Shown here piece after piece: positions 1-3,790 of a stretch of 64,000 bases of DNA (position 1 is the first letter of the stretch; every line of letters starts with the position of its first letter). Position numbers and translations under genes: made by a program. The notes beneath the pieces were generated by a model. It was given only the letters and a program-made list of their open reading frames with translations. It ran no database searches and had not been told where the DNA came from. Source of the stretch: Vreelandella halophila (GTDB lineage Bacteria; Pseudomonadota; Gammaproteobacteria; Pseudomonadales; Oleiphilaceae); assembly GCF_009856365.1 (NCBI RefSeq), contig NZ_WMEX01000006.1, positions 1 to 64,000 of the forward strand, given 5' to 3'.

Positions 1-64
1 GGTGGCGGTAGTTGATCACCACCATCGCGTCCTGATCGTAGTTGTAGGGCTTGAAGCGGGGCAT
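1..64 (-). CDS. IS transposase, N-terminal fragment (runs off left edge)
   Basis: Only the first 21 codons are inside the window, read leftward from an ATG at 64-62. They begin MPRFKPYNYDQDAM and continue VVINYRH. This opening resembles the N-terminus of DDE transposases that start with a DUF772-type domain (IS1182-like elements); this is recognition from memory, not a search. About 50-60 bases of AT-richer sequence precede it and should hold the terminal inverted repeat, perhaps around 110-127 where the sequence reads TTTTTCTACAGTCTC. The catalytic part lies outside the window, so it cannot be said whether the element is intact. Confidence 0.6.
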   Translation of the reverse strand, partial: MPRFKPYNYDQDAMVVINYRH

Positions 65-120
65 GCCAACGACTCCCTGTTGCTCGGTGCCAGCCTACCA
101 AATCGGGGGTTTTTCTACAG

Positions 121-225
121 TCTCAACGCCATTGTTCAGCGGCGACCTTTTCGCAGCGAAGCGGACAAAAGGGCGTCCGGTGGAGGGCCTTTAGGCCCGG
201 AACGAACTGGAACTACTTGTTAGCG
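121..225 (-). other. integron attC-like recombination site
   Basis: On the minus strand the order is R'' CGCTAAC (225-219), a 5-base spacer, L'' GTTCCAG (213-207), a central region with several small hairpins (for example GGGCC/GGCCC at 185-198 and GGAC/GTCC at 163-178), L' CTGAAC (139-134), a 6-base spacer, then R' GTTGAGA (127-121). L'' and L' are complementary except for one extra base, the extrahelical position typical of folded attC sites. R'' is the exact complement of the GTTAGCG box at 716-710, at the other end of the same cassette, as expected for a circularisable cassette. R' fits GTTRRRY except for its last base. The 105-base span is within the known attC range. Confidence 0.75.
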
Positions 226-715
226 TAATCACCCGGCCCCTTGTTGCGGAAATCTGTAAAGAACAGAACCGTTGAATCTGACACCCTGTGTGGCAGATTG
301 GATACGGCGAAGTTCTCAAATTGATGCACGCCTTCGCGAAGTAGACTGTTGCCTTGTGGGCTGTGAAGCCAAGCAACGCCACCAAGATTGACCAATACAG
401 TAAGCCAAAAAAACACGCGGAAACTCTGCTTCTTAGTCTTATGGCGCAGACGTTCCTGGGCAATAAGAGCCCCAGGCCAACCGAACAATAGCGCCACCAC
501 GTGGAGAGCATTCTCCGGCACGCGCCAAGATCCAACCTTCGCGGCGGCCTTGTCTTTTGCGTATAGAAAATAGGCTTTCAAGCTAACAATGAGAAAGAGC
601 ACACCAAAAGCAACAGGCGTATAGCCCAGGAAATAGGAGGCGACCAAGAATATGCCGAAGGCTAGTAGTAATATGTGGTGATATTTCACTGAAGAAAACC
701 TTTTATTCTCGCTAA
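127..715 (-). mobile_element. solitary integron gene cassette carrying a DUF1294 gene
   Basis: The unit is bounded on the minus strand by the crossover G|TTAGCG at 716/715 and by the R' box of the attC site at 127. It holds one open reading frame (689-213), with a leader of about 26 bases and the stop codon only a few bases past the start of R'', a compact layout typical of cassettes. No integrase gene and no second attC are visible; the nrdJ genes lie upstream and an IS start lies downstream. It is therefore either a lone cassette inserted at a secondary site or the last one or two members of an array continuing left. Boundaries follow the attC model and are inferred. Confidence 0.65.
213..689 (-). 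CDS. DUF1294 family small membrane protein
   Basis: 158 residues from a GTG start. The N-terminal half has two hydrophobic segments (about residues 5-22 and 26-43). The core shows the DUF1294 pattern: YAKDKAAAKVGSWRVPENAL, then LFGWPGALIAQ and RHKTKKQSFR, and a further hydrophobic helix around 93-110. DUF1294 proteins are small inner-membrane proteins of unknown function, some fused to cold-shock domains, and they occur in integron cassettes. The last 45 residues extend beyond the usual domain. The gene sits alone inside the cassette, so its expression probably depends on a nearby external promoter. The composition looks more AT-rich than the nrdJ genes next door, which fits transfer. Confidence 0.75.
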   Translation of the reverse strand: MKYHHILLLAFGIFLVASYFLGYTPVAFGVLFLIVSLKAYFLYAKDKAAAKVGSWRVPENALHVVALLFGWPGALIAQERLRHKTKKQSFRVFFWLTVLVNLGGVAWLHSPQGNSLLREGVHQFENFAVSNLPHRVSDSTVLFFTDFRNKGPGDYANK

Positions 716-743
716 CAGGTAATGATAGGAATTCTGCGTTATT

Positions 744-859
744 GATATCCCTGAATTCGGTATAGCGCCAGCTTGCTTTGCTGAGTTTATCCGGAATCTA
801 TCCATAAAATCAGGGGTCTACCACGCAGGCGTAGACCGCGATGTAATATCCTGAATTCC
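744..859. repeat. direct repeats and a palindrome between the cassette and nrdJb
   Basis: The motif ATATCC(C)TGAATTC occurs at about 746-758 and again at about 847-857. Between them is a perfect 7-base inverted repeat, GGTCTAC (815-821) and GTAGACC (831-837), with a 9-base loop. No coding frame is apparent in 717-887. The stretch is AT-richer than its surroundings. Its role is unknown; it could be the remains of the insertion target or part of an older mobile segment. Confidence 0.4.
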
Positions 860-934: not shown

Positions 935-1621
935 TTAGCCGCACTTACTTTCGCCGCAGGCAAGGCAGGTTTCACACCCATCCATCATCACCATGGCCTT
1001 GGTGTGGCATTTGCCGCAGACCGTGGCGTTGGGCGGGTAGCTGCCCTCGGCGTTGGTGGCCGGTTCGCCGTTGCTCTCAAAGGCGGCTTTCTTCTCGGCG
1101 ATCATCCGCTGGGTGAGCTCGCTCATCTCTTCGGTCTCGATCAGGCCGATGGCCTTCATGTGCTTCTCGATCACGTAGCCGATCTCGGCCACCAGCGAGG
1201 GCATGAAGACGCCGCCTTTCTTGAAGTAGCCGCCGCTCGGGTCGTGCACGGAGCGCAGCTCTTCCACCAGGAAGGTGACGTCGCCGCCCTTGCGGAACAC
1301 GGCGGAGAGCACGCGGGTGAGGGCGATCACCCACTGGAAGTGCTCCATGTTCTTGGAGTTGATGAACACCTCGTAGGGGCGGCGGGTTTCATGGTCCGTG
1401 CCCTCGTTGAGGATGATGTCGTTGATGGTGATGTACATCGCGTGGTCATCGATCGGCGGCTTGATCTTGTAGGTGGTGCCGAGCAGGAACTCGGGCCGCT
1501 CGATGTGCTCGTTCATCACCAGCGGCTGGTTCTCGGTGCTGGTCTGCTGCGCCTCATTGGCGGCGTTCTCTTCCTTGAGAACGCGCTGGTCGACGATTTT
1601 CTTCTCGATTCGGACGGTCAT
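935..1621 (-). CDS. nrdJb: class II ribonucleotide reductase, small C-terminal component NrdJb
   Basis: 228 residues. In Pseudomonas-type genomes the adenosylcobalamin-dependent ribonucleotide reductase is split into NrdJa (catalytic barrel) and NrdJb, and this protein matches the second part. It is acidic, and its last 28 residues carry a cysteine cluster (CGKCHTKAM, then CETCLACGESKCG) as found at the C-terminus of class II enzymes, where cysteines re-reduce the active-site disulphide and may bind zinc. It starts 30 bases after nrdJa and is followed by a clear terminator, so the two genes form one transcript. The product should work with NrdJa to make deoxynucleotides with or without oxygen when B12 is available. 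Confidence 0.88.
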   Translation of the reverse strand: MTVRIEKKIVDQRVLKEENAANEAQQTSTENQPLVMNEHIERPEFLLGTTYKIKPPIDDHAMYITINDIILNEGTDHETRRPYEVFINSKNMEHFQWVIALTRVLSAVFRKGGDVTFLVEELRSVHDPSGGYFKKGGVFMPSLVAEIGYVIEKHMKAIGLIETEEMSELTQRMIAEKKAAFESNGEPATNAEGSYPPNATVCGKCHTKAMVMMDGCETCLACGESKCG

Positions 1622-1651: not shown

Positions 1652-3790
1652 TCAGTACTTGCCGTAGGTGCCTTCCTTGAGGGCATCGAAGAGGTTGGCG
1701 GCGTTGTGGAATTCGCCGTCGTATTCGATTTCCTCGTCGCCACTGACCTGGACGGTACTGCCATCCTCCAGCGTGAACTCGTATTGGGTGCCTTCAAGGT
1801 CCTTCTGCTTCACCAACACGCCCTGGAAGGCCTCGGGGTTGAAGCGGAAGGTGGTGCAGCCCTTCAGCCCCTGCTCGTAGGCGTACATGTAGATGTCCTT
1901 GAAGTCGTCGTACGCGAAGTCCGTGGGCACGTTCGCGGTCTTGGAAATGGAGGAGTCCACCCACTTCTGGGCCGCGCCCTGGATGTCCACGTGCTGCTTC
2001 GGGCTCACGTCGTCCGCCACGGTGAAGTAGCTCGGCAGCTGCTCCTCGGGGTTCTCGGAGTCGGGCATGGCCTTCTCGTTCACCAGCTCGCGGTAGGCGA
2101 GCAGCTCGAAGGAGAACACGTCCACTTTTTCCTTGGACTTGCGCCCCTCGCGGATCACGTTGCGTGAGTAGTGGTGCGAGAAGCTGGGCTCGATGCCGTT
2201 GCTGGCGTTGTTGGCCAGCGACAGCGAGATGGTGCCCGTGGGCGCGATGGAGGTGTGGTGCGTGAAGCGCACGCCTTTCTCGGCGATCTGCTGCACGACC
2301 TCCGGCTCCGCCTCGGCGATCTTCTGCATGTAGCGGCTGTAGCGCGCGTGCAGGATGCGCCCGGGCACCTTGTCGCCGGCGGTGTAGCCGTCTTCACGCA
2401 TCTCGGGGCGCAGTTCGAGCATTTCCTCGGTCACTTCGAACTCGTCGTTCATGATCGGGGCGGGGCCTTTTTCTTCGGCGAGGCGGACGCCTTCGCGCCA
2501 GCCTTCCAGCGCCATCTCCTTGGTCACTTCCTCGGTGAAGGCGACGGAGTCCGCAGAGCCGTAGGGCATGCGCAGCATGGCGAGCGTGGAGCCCAGGCCC
2601 AGGATGCCCATGCCGTGGCGGCGCTTGTATTCGATCTCGTGGCGCTGCTTGTCCAGCGGCAGGCCGTTGAGCTCGACCACGTTGTCCAGCATGCGGGTGA
2701 AGATGCCCACGACCTTGCGGTACTTGTCGTAGTTGAAGCGCGCCTTCTCGGTGAAGGGGAACTCCACAAAGCGGGTCAGGTTGATCGAGCCCAGCAGGCA
2801 GCTGCCGTAGGGCGGCAGGGGCTGCTCACCGCAGGGGTTGGTGGCGCGGATGTTCTCGCAGAACCAGTTGTTGTTCATCCGGTTGACCTTGTCGATCAGG
2901 ATGAAGCCCGGCTCGGCGTAGTCGTAGGTGGAGGACATGATCTTGTCCCAGATCGCGCGCGCCTTGAGTGTGCGGTAGATCCGGCAGGCGACATTGCCCT
3001 TGCCGTCGGTCACGTAGCCGTCCTTGACCGGGAAGTCACGGTAGACGAACTGTTCCGGGTCGTTCAGGTCCAGGCCTTCCTTCTCGGCTTCCTCGCTGGA
3101 GACGGGGAAGGAGAGTTGCCAGTCCGCGTCGTTCTTCACTGCCTCGATGAAGTCTTCGGTGATCAGCAGTGAGAGGTTGAACTGGCGCAGGCGGGCGTCT
3201 TCGCGCTTGGCTTCGATGAAGTCGATGATGTCCGGGTGGTGCACATCGAAGGTTGCCATCTGCGCGCCACGGCGCCCGCCCGCTGAGGAGACGGTGAAGC
3301 ACATGCGGTCGAAGATATCCATGAAGGACAGGGGACCGGAGGTGGTGGCGCCGGCACCCGCCACATAGGCGCCCTTGGGCCGCAGGGTGGAGAACTCGTA
3401 GCCGATGCCGCAGCCGGCCTTGAGGGTGAGGCCTGCTTCGTGGTTCTTCACCAGGATGTTGTCCATGGAGTCATAGACGGTGCCGGAGACGGTGCAGTTG
3501 ATGGTGGAGGTGGCCGGCTTGTGCGCTTCCGCGCCCGCGTTGGAGGTGATGCGCCCGGCCGGTATCGCGCCGTTGCGCAGGGCCCAGACGAAGTCTTCGT
3601 GCACGGCCTTGCGCTTCTTGGCGGTCTCCACGGAGGCCAGGGACTCCGCGACGCGCTTGTAGGTGTCCTCGATTTCACGGTCGACAGGCTCGCCGGCCTT
3701 GGTCTTGAGCTGGTACTTGCTGGCCCAGATGTCGACCGAGGTTTCCTGGAAGGGAATGTTGTTGGTCAGATCCTGAGTCTTGGCGTTCAT
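1652..3790 (-). CDS. nrdJa: class II (B12-dependent) ribonucleoside-diphosphate reductase, catalytic component NrdJa
   Basis: 712 residues. It carries the ribonucleotide reductase barrel: a conserved segment LKAGCGIGYEFSTLRPKG near residue 125, the substrate-loop motif NPCGEQPLPPYGSCLLGSIN near 316, and THHTSIAPTGTISLSLANN further on. The catalytic cysteine should be the one in NPCGE, in line with the family. Length fits the split NrdJa form rather than the longer fused NrdJ. It reduces nucleotides to deoxynucleotides using adenosylcobalamin as radical source. Transcription starts in a divergent region holding NrdR boxes and a structured leader, so repression by NrdR is likely. The start codon ATG at 3790 begins MNAKTQDLTNN. 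Confidence 0.93.
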   Translation of the reverse strand: MNAKTQDLTNNIPFQETSVDIWASKYQLKTKAGEPVDREIEDTYKRVAESLASVETAKKRKAVHEDFVWALRNGAIPAGRITSNAGAEAHKPATSTINCTVSGTVYDSMDNILVKNHEAGLTLKAGCGIGYEFSTLRPKGAYVAGAGATTSGPLSFMDIFDRMCFTVSSAGGRRGAQMATFDVHHPDIIDFIEAKREDARLRQFNLSLLITEDFIEAVKNDADWQLSFPVSSEEAEKEGLDLNDPEQFVYRDFPVKDGYVTDGKGNVACRIYRTLKARAIWDKIMSSTYDYAEPGFILIDKVNRMNNNWFCENIRATNPCGEQPLPPYGSCLLGSINLTRFVEFPFTEKARFNYDKYRKVVGIFTRMLDNVVELNGLPLDKQRHEIEYKRRHGMGILGLGSTLAMLRMPYGSADSVAFTEEVTKEMALEGWREGVRLAEEKGPAPIMNDEFEVTEEMLELRPEMREDGYTAGDKVPGRILHARYSRYMQKIAEAEPEVVQQIAEKGVRFTHHTSIAPTGTISLSLANNASNGIEPSFSHHYSRNVIREGRKSKEKVDVFSFELLAYRELVNEKAMPDSENPEEQLPSYFTVADDVSPKQHVDIQGAAQKWVDSSISKTANVPTDFAYDDFKDIYMYAYEQGLKGCTTFRFNPEAFQGVLVKQKDLEGTQYEFTLEDGSTVQVSGDEEIEYDGEFHNAANLFDALKEGTYGKY

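Follow-up and report, generated by a model that had tools for sequence, protein, structure and literature searches.

How does an integron cassette come to lie beside a ribonucleotide reductase gene with no integrase next to it? The question is raised by the first bases of contig C16 of Vreelandella halophila, whose initial 64,000 nucleotides are the window, i.e. the whole stretch of DNA analysed here. A preliminary description had noted a DUF1294 gene bracketed by complementary heptamers, and had read it as a solitary cassette inserted beside a reductase operon. We find that the gene is an integron cassette with a genuine attC site, and that the attI site at which it lies lacks an adjoining integrase. 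The parts of the cassette are as follows.

710..716, minus strand: 5' boundary of the cassette, GTTAGCG, exact complement of R'', with the crossover at G716 / T715
213..689, minus strand: cassette gene for a DUF1294 protein of 158 aa, with a GTG start and a TAG stop inside the attC site
125..225, minus strand: attC site, found with the held-out covariance model R2, the match spanning 121-225
207..225, minus strand: attC boxes R'' CGCTAAC (225-219) and L'' GTTCCAG (213-207), separated by the spacer AAGTA
125..139, minus strand: attC boxes L' CTGAAC (139-134) and R' GTT (127-125), separated by the spacer AATGGC
125..127, minus strand: GTT of the attC R' box, the recombination core, which is also the triplet targeted by an insertion sequence

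The boxes named in the preliminary description are present where it had placed them. R'' (225-219) and the 5' boundary (716-710) are exact reverse complements, the 7-mer occurring in a fraction of 0.029 of shuffled cassettes, and the pairing of L'' with L' leaves one extra, extrahelical base in L''. The covariance-model search that had been proposed as a check gave the segment 121-225 as the only significant match in the 64-kb window, with 67.9 bits and E=1.1e-18; the next match reached 10.2 bits and E=2.5 when all matches to E=10 were considered. Model R2 was trained on nine other attC sites of the genus, the window site being left out, and its E-values are rough. It is on this held-out score that we regard the attC site as real. 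The bare box pattern did not rise above chance in the window: a simple box scanner gave the attC site 10.3, tied seventh to eighth of 14 window matches, and the best match in one shuffled window scored 11.8. Folding of the attC segment as DNA was unremarkable (z -1.8), and Rfam at gathering thresholds returned no attC in the window, a tRNA elsewhere in it being the sole match. The open reading frame at 689-213 matches Pfam PF06961 (E=2.5e-21). For relatives of the DUF1294 gene elsewhere (19 loci, best segment 64% identity), R2 gave 0 attC matches in the 8 loci to which it was applied.

The sequence on the other side of the 5' boundary holds the following features.

713..772, minus strand: core of an orphan attI site, 60 nt, paralogous to the intI-linked attI of contig C2
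838..880, minus strand: upstream block of the extended attI with the GAATTCAGGATATT motif, similar in other copies by alignment
935..1621, minus strand: host gene for a separate protein resembling the C-terminal part of a B12-dependent ribonucleotide reductase
1652..3790, minus strand: host gene nrdJ (TIGR02504, 572.7 bits)

The neighbouring gene was thus rightly called a reductase gene, the enzyme being an adenosylcobalamin-dependent ribonucleotide reductase; the product of 935..1621 matches NF006417 with E=1.2e-13, far under the cut-off of that model. The idea of an ordinary insertion beside the reductase, with no attI, did not hold. Window positions 711-778 match the region between the C2 integrase and its first cassette at 79% over 68 nt (BLAST, E=2.0e-8), and the attI core scores 65.8 bits with the attI model R1, the window copy being among its training sequences. 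Further upstream, positions 842-858 form a 17-nt exact match with the 1939k copy of another genome of the genus, G001.

The genome of the window (G000; 3.34 Mb, 19 contigs, 96.86% complete) has a single match above the integron-integrase cut-off, a full-length protein on contig C2 (411.5 bits, cut-off 265), and the remaining integrase-family matches reach at most 86.4 bits. In agreement with the preliminary description, the family search revealed no integron integrase in the window and none adjoining the cassette; a weak integrase-family match on the same contig lies outside the window (C16:218562, 21.3 bits). IntI similarity was absent from the 2287 nt searched upstream of the window attI (tblastn, E<=1), so that an intI adjoining the attI, as in a complete integron, is not found at this site. 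The C2 intI is preceded by CTG-N10-CAG (L013:13180-13210), which we take to be a LexA-like box. We also noted that the first cassette at the C2 attI (L013:13685-13954 and the preceding frame) is 86.6% identical over 597 nt to a cassette of the array in G004; it is presumably a BrnT/BrnA-like toxin-antitoxin pair, and Pfam gave only weak CopG/HicB-like matches for it.

The window genome has at least three attI copies besides the linked one on C2. The third copy of the genome, on C14, has GGT instead of GTT, and a fourth on C12 is degenerate and reaches only 16.2 bits at a cassette start. Among 163 genomes of the family, R1 produced 14 strong matches (>=26 bits; 11 of them R1 training sequences), every one in the genus of the window, and the best match outside it was partial, with 20.2 bits; this type of attI therefore looks genus-specific. 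The 11 aligned cores share 28 invariant columns out of 60, and all of them end at the cassette border. When C12 is included, there are 15 attI sites in four species of the genus (sampled by five genomes, of which G002 is 68% complete and has no attI match): four beside intI and 11 orphan. IntI similarity (tblastn, E<=1) was present at all four linked sites, though truncated in G003, and absent from the 2.3-5 kb upstream of all 11 orphan sites. The orphan copies on C14 and at 1771k of G001 keep part of the region upstream of intI, and no intact attC was found near the 657k site of G004. Half of the LexA-like box was seen at C14 and at G001 1771k.

A comparison of the junction with relatives, as had been suggested, demonstrates that orthologous orphan sites hold different cassettes. 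At the nrdJ sites of G000 and G001, all 2287 of 2287 nt in front of the GTT align with 95.5% identity, after which the cassettes differ; at another orphan site, compared between G001 and G003, 2129 nt align with 93.7% identity, again as far as the GTT. Beyond it, neither pair has a common stretch longer than 120 nt at E<=1e-8, the similarity between G000 and G001 at nrdJ being attC-sized only (82.5% over 103 nt). In G001 the nrdJ attI is followed by an insertion sequence at the border and then a different cassette, and in G004 by a third, different one, so the window gene and its two boxes are not conserved as vertically inherited sequence. The nrdJ locus of G003 has no R1 or R2 match and carries different genes; a 658-aa ATPase-like open frame, recognised by eye, and others stand there in place of attI and cassettes (L074:5274-8720). 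We regard the region beside nrdJ as an insertion hotspot.

The borders were likewise compared across the genus. At 10 of the 15 attI sites the first R'' and the 5' border are exact complements; in a permutation test on 12 sites (omitting G001 nrdJ, G004 657k and G004 C2:93), which include these 10, 2000 permutations gave 0.9 exact borders on average and never more than 5. As for the other sites, G003 120k matches R'' at 6 of 7 positions, G003 C12 and G004 657k have no match, G004 C2:93 runs off its contig, and G001 nrdJ has TTAGCG after the insertion sequence at the border and CGCTAAC in its attC. Entire cassettes also recur from one array to another: one on C15 of G000 is found at 97.6% over 659 nt in the integrase array of G001 and at 89.8% over 567 nt in the region of an orphan site of G003.

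The view of the window cassette as a lone one needs correction as well. The window holds one attC, and contig C19 carries two cassettes with attC; synteny appears to join C16 through an insertion sequence to C19, for which reason the window cassette is probably not alone and the array probably comprises three cassettes. If this join is right, the array would have the two or more integrase-less attC sites that define a CALIN. The insertion sequence is represented in the window by its end.

1..124, minus strand: left end of an IS1182-like insertion sequence, with the terminal repeat GAGACTGTAGAAAAAC at 124-109 and a transposase starting MPRFKPYNYDQ...

Contig C16 begins at base 1 of the window, inside this element. 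The R' box had been given as GTTGAGA; the GTT does belong to R', and the GAGA is the end of the insertion sequence. A near-identical left end lies at four contig ends of the window genome, and we saw such ends at the end of C12 and at the starts of C14 and C16. Relatives of the element were seen in G001, G003, G004, G009, G013, G014, G018, G019, G023 and G030. The complete relative in G001 is 1755 bp long, has a frameshifted transposase and is flanked by GTT on both sides (GTT-IS-GTT); the 353-aa N-terminal part of its transposase matches Pfam DUF772 (57.3 bits) and nothing else, i.e. no DEDD transposase of the IS1111/IS110 type was recognised in it. A weak match to a plasmid annotated IS1182-like was obtained (76.5% over 81 nt). 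To describe the target, 21 left ends from 14 genomes were picked from the loci in hand, dropping duplicate loci, right ends and matches without a locus. GTT precedes 20 of these, and an attC precedes 17 at p<0.02 relative to 1539 GTT positions of the window; those with no significant attC are in G000 C15, G024, G012 and G005, the last lying inside an attC by eye. The IS1182-like group is thus an apparent second attC-targeting group of insertion sequences besides IS1111-attC, and no report of IS1182-like elements targeting attC was found among the open-access literature matches listed. A decayed copy was also seen directly after an attC GTT in G003 (C12:301196; L129 from ~9197). In G001, another element with GGAACCTCTG ends is inserted at GTTAR in the nrdJ attI (L070) and in the 1771k attC (L071); we assume it to be IS5-like, and its insertion probably duplicated TTAR.

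Since the attI type recognised by R1 looks genus-specific, a separate model, R3, was needed for a large sister genus, whose attI is of another type but is laid out alike; R3 was built from the intI-proximal block of 11 linked copies. An integron-integrase match at E<=1e-60 is present in 113 of the 163 family genomes (107 above cut-off). The sister-type attI occurs in 113 copies in 70 of the 163 genomes, 31 of them beside intI (30 at 164-176 nt from it and one at 378) and 82 away from it, a count of orphans that in fragmented assemblies can include linked sites cut by contig ends. These 70 genomes comprise 20 with linked and orphan copies, 11 with linked copies only, 19 with intI only elsewhere and 20 without intI at E<=1e-60. 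Sure orphans in genomes with both kinds number five, in four single-contig genomes (G151, G101 with two, G080 and G113).

The sister-type attI forms a module of 267-277 bp in 26 of 27 loci with both borders recognised (182 bp in L252); among the 34 loci considered, L221 gave no block by BLAST and L244 no border. It starts a few tens of bases beyond the LexA-like box seen in linked copies and ends in CTGTT at the cassette start, with the same G/TT as in the genus of the window. By eye, an exact R'' match leading into an attC was recognised at 10 of the 18 orphan sites that have a border and at 6 of the 14 such linked sites; the remainder lack the match, have one that no attC follows, or offer too short a sequence. 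Model R2 found 50 attC matches in 14 of 19 orphan loci, all 50 of them downstream and on the strand of the module; the loci with no R2 match were L220, L225, L246, L248 and L252, and in four of these attC-like sequence was recognised by eye. IntI similarity (E<=1e-5) was found in none of the 20 orphan stretches fetched, most of which hold at most ~4 kb upstream. A near-palindrome, ACGAACGCGTTCG, was seen at both ends of the ~275-bp module, e.g. in L219 and L222, and may serve IntI or a regulator as an accessory binding site.

Moreover, linked and orphan arrays share cassettes. In the single contig of G151 a 431-bp cassette, measured from GTT to GTT, is 100% identical in the linked and the orphan array, 387 kb apart, and the orphan array also holds a 99.8% copy as well as a 99.3% copy that is first at the orphan attI. 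The left neighbour of these copies is an attC in some and the attI in others, and almost nothing is alike left of the GTT, the border being exact. The cassette that is first at the linked attI is second in the orphan array in both G080 (99.8% over 826 nt) and G069 (99.7% over 377 nt), and a cassette of the orphan array in G113 is 99.8% identical over 439 nt to one of the linked array in G148. The first cassette of G101 is 100% identical at the linked and the orphan attI; here, copying of the whole attI region could have been the cause.

The attI copies of a genome also tend to resemble one another. Six species of the sister genus share one orthologous orphan site, at which their first cassettes differ and have attC-sized matches of 42-75 nt only. 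In 13 of the 15 species pairs the two orphan attI are less similar to one another than either is to the linked attI of its own genome, the exceptions being G069 with G113 and G069 with G062. Among 14 ranked copies, the linked one of the same genome comes first for 11 of the 15 orphans and second or third for the other four. Likewise, the nrdJ attI of G004 is separated from the linked attI of that genome by 3 differences in 60 positions, and from its nrdJ orthologues by 12. Gene conversion, or selection for a match to IntI, would each keep attI copies alike.

The presence of attI copies, the exact borders, the different cassettes at orthologous sites and the near-identical cassettes in linked and orphan arrays together point to an integrase acting in trans. 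The attI site in the window is observed directly; its use by a distant integrase is strongly suggested by these comparisons. We propose, with a probability of roughly 0.8, that a single integrase supplies cassettes in trans to several attI sites scattered over the genome and that the window is a distant docking site. Integron integrases excise cassettes as folded single strands. The C2 integrase would be made under SOS control, as the LexA-like box before intI suggests, and acting in trans it would insert cassettes at the G/TT of any attI of its own, near or far. Some observations speak against this: the integrase of G003 is broken, so that the sites of G003 cannot be served by it now; the upstream remnants at C14 and G001 1771k fit the loss of a former integrase; and orphan sites can decay, as judged by C12 (16.2 bits), C14 (GGT) and G004 657k. 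With somewhat less confidence, though we still hold it to be likely, the pattern in this bacterial family is one of distributed integrons, in which a single integrase would be combined with dispersed attI modules of ~150 to 275 bp, at loci kept between species, with cassettes exchanged at G/TT and the modules evolving in concert with the resident attI.

The remnants just mentioned, together with the broken intI of G003, are also what one would expect if the orphan sites were decayed integrons that lost their own integrase, leaving a frozen array and nothing acting in trans; CALINs have indeed been proposed to be degraded integrons, in the relevant passage of PMC9024848. We consider this unlikely, since orthologous orphan sites lacking intI carry different cassettes in different species, the cassette at the orphan attI of G151 has its counterpart in the linked array at 99.3-100% identity, and the orphan modules of the sister genus have a common left border past the LexA-like box, with IntI similarity in 0 of 20 stretches. 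Less probable still is that RecA moves cassettes and homogenises attI through homologous exchange of attI and attC, no integrase being needed at the orphan sites. The resemblance of orphan attI to the linked copy of their own genome would follow from it, attC sites are alike enough to recombine, and in G101 the attI and the first cassette are common to both sites. However, the G151 copies start exactly at the GTT despite having attC in one case and attI in the other as neighbour, which homologous exchange does not predict; it may nevertheless be behind the concerted evolution of attI. As to the reading as a solitary cassette in an ordinary attG-like secondary site, the window does have no integrase and a single attC, but a 79% attI match that ends at the cassette border contradicts such a site, as do the different cassettes that come after the orthologous attI of G001 and G004, and we judge it very improbable.

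In the usual description, an integron consists of one integrase, one attI and one array. The statement that there is only one attI per integron is made in PMC3607928. What we propose, a trans-acting integrase serving several attI, resembles a sedentary chromosomal integron in its TIGR02249 integrase, its attI, its many similar attC sites and the LexA-like box before intI, and is unlike it in having several attI per genome, most of them away from the integrase. It resembles CALINs in that attC cassettes stand without an adjoining integrase, and differs from them in that the cluster starts at a recognisable attI copy, the apparent receiver of cassettes. Mobilisation of CALINs in trans is stated in a passage of PMC12444791, and the Xanthomonas CALINs described there are similarly placed at a few conserved loci away from intI; in contrast to the sites reported here, no attI is mentioned in that description, on which the comparison is based. 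The IntegronFinder 2.0 paper limits attI detection to class 1 (PMC9024848), so orphan attI sites would escape that program. Among the matches listed from open-access titles and abstracts, we found no description of an integrase-less attI that takes cassettes in trans. The insertion sequence is comparable to the IS1111-attC elements, a known attC-targeting group, in lying at the end of attC sites (PMC11187229); according to the title and abstract of that paper, IS1111 elements have a DEDD transposase and a guide RNA, whereas ours is an IS1182-like element with DUF772 and GAGACTGTAG ends, flanked in G001 by GTT to its left and right.

If the proposed reading is true, integrase-less clusters can be live, some of them would be remote arms of one integron, and each new cassette would gain several genomic addresses. 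Persistent attI modules could then explain the conserved positions of integrase-less clusters, and both the origin of such clusters and their conserved positions would become testable by a search for attI copies.
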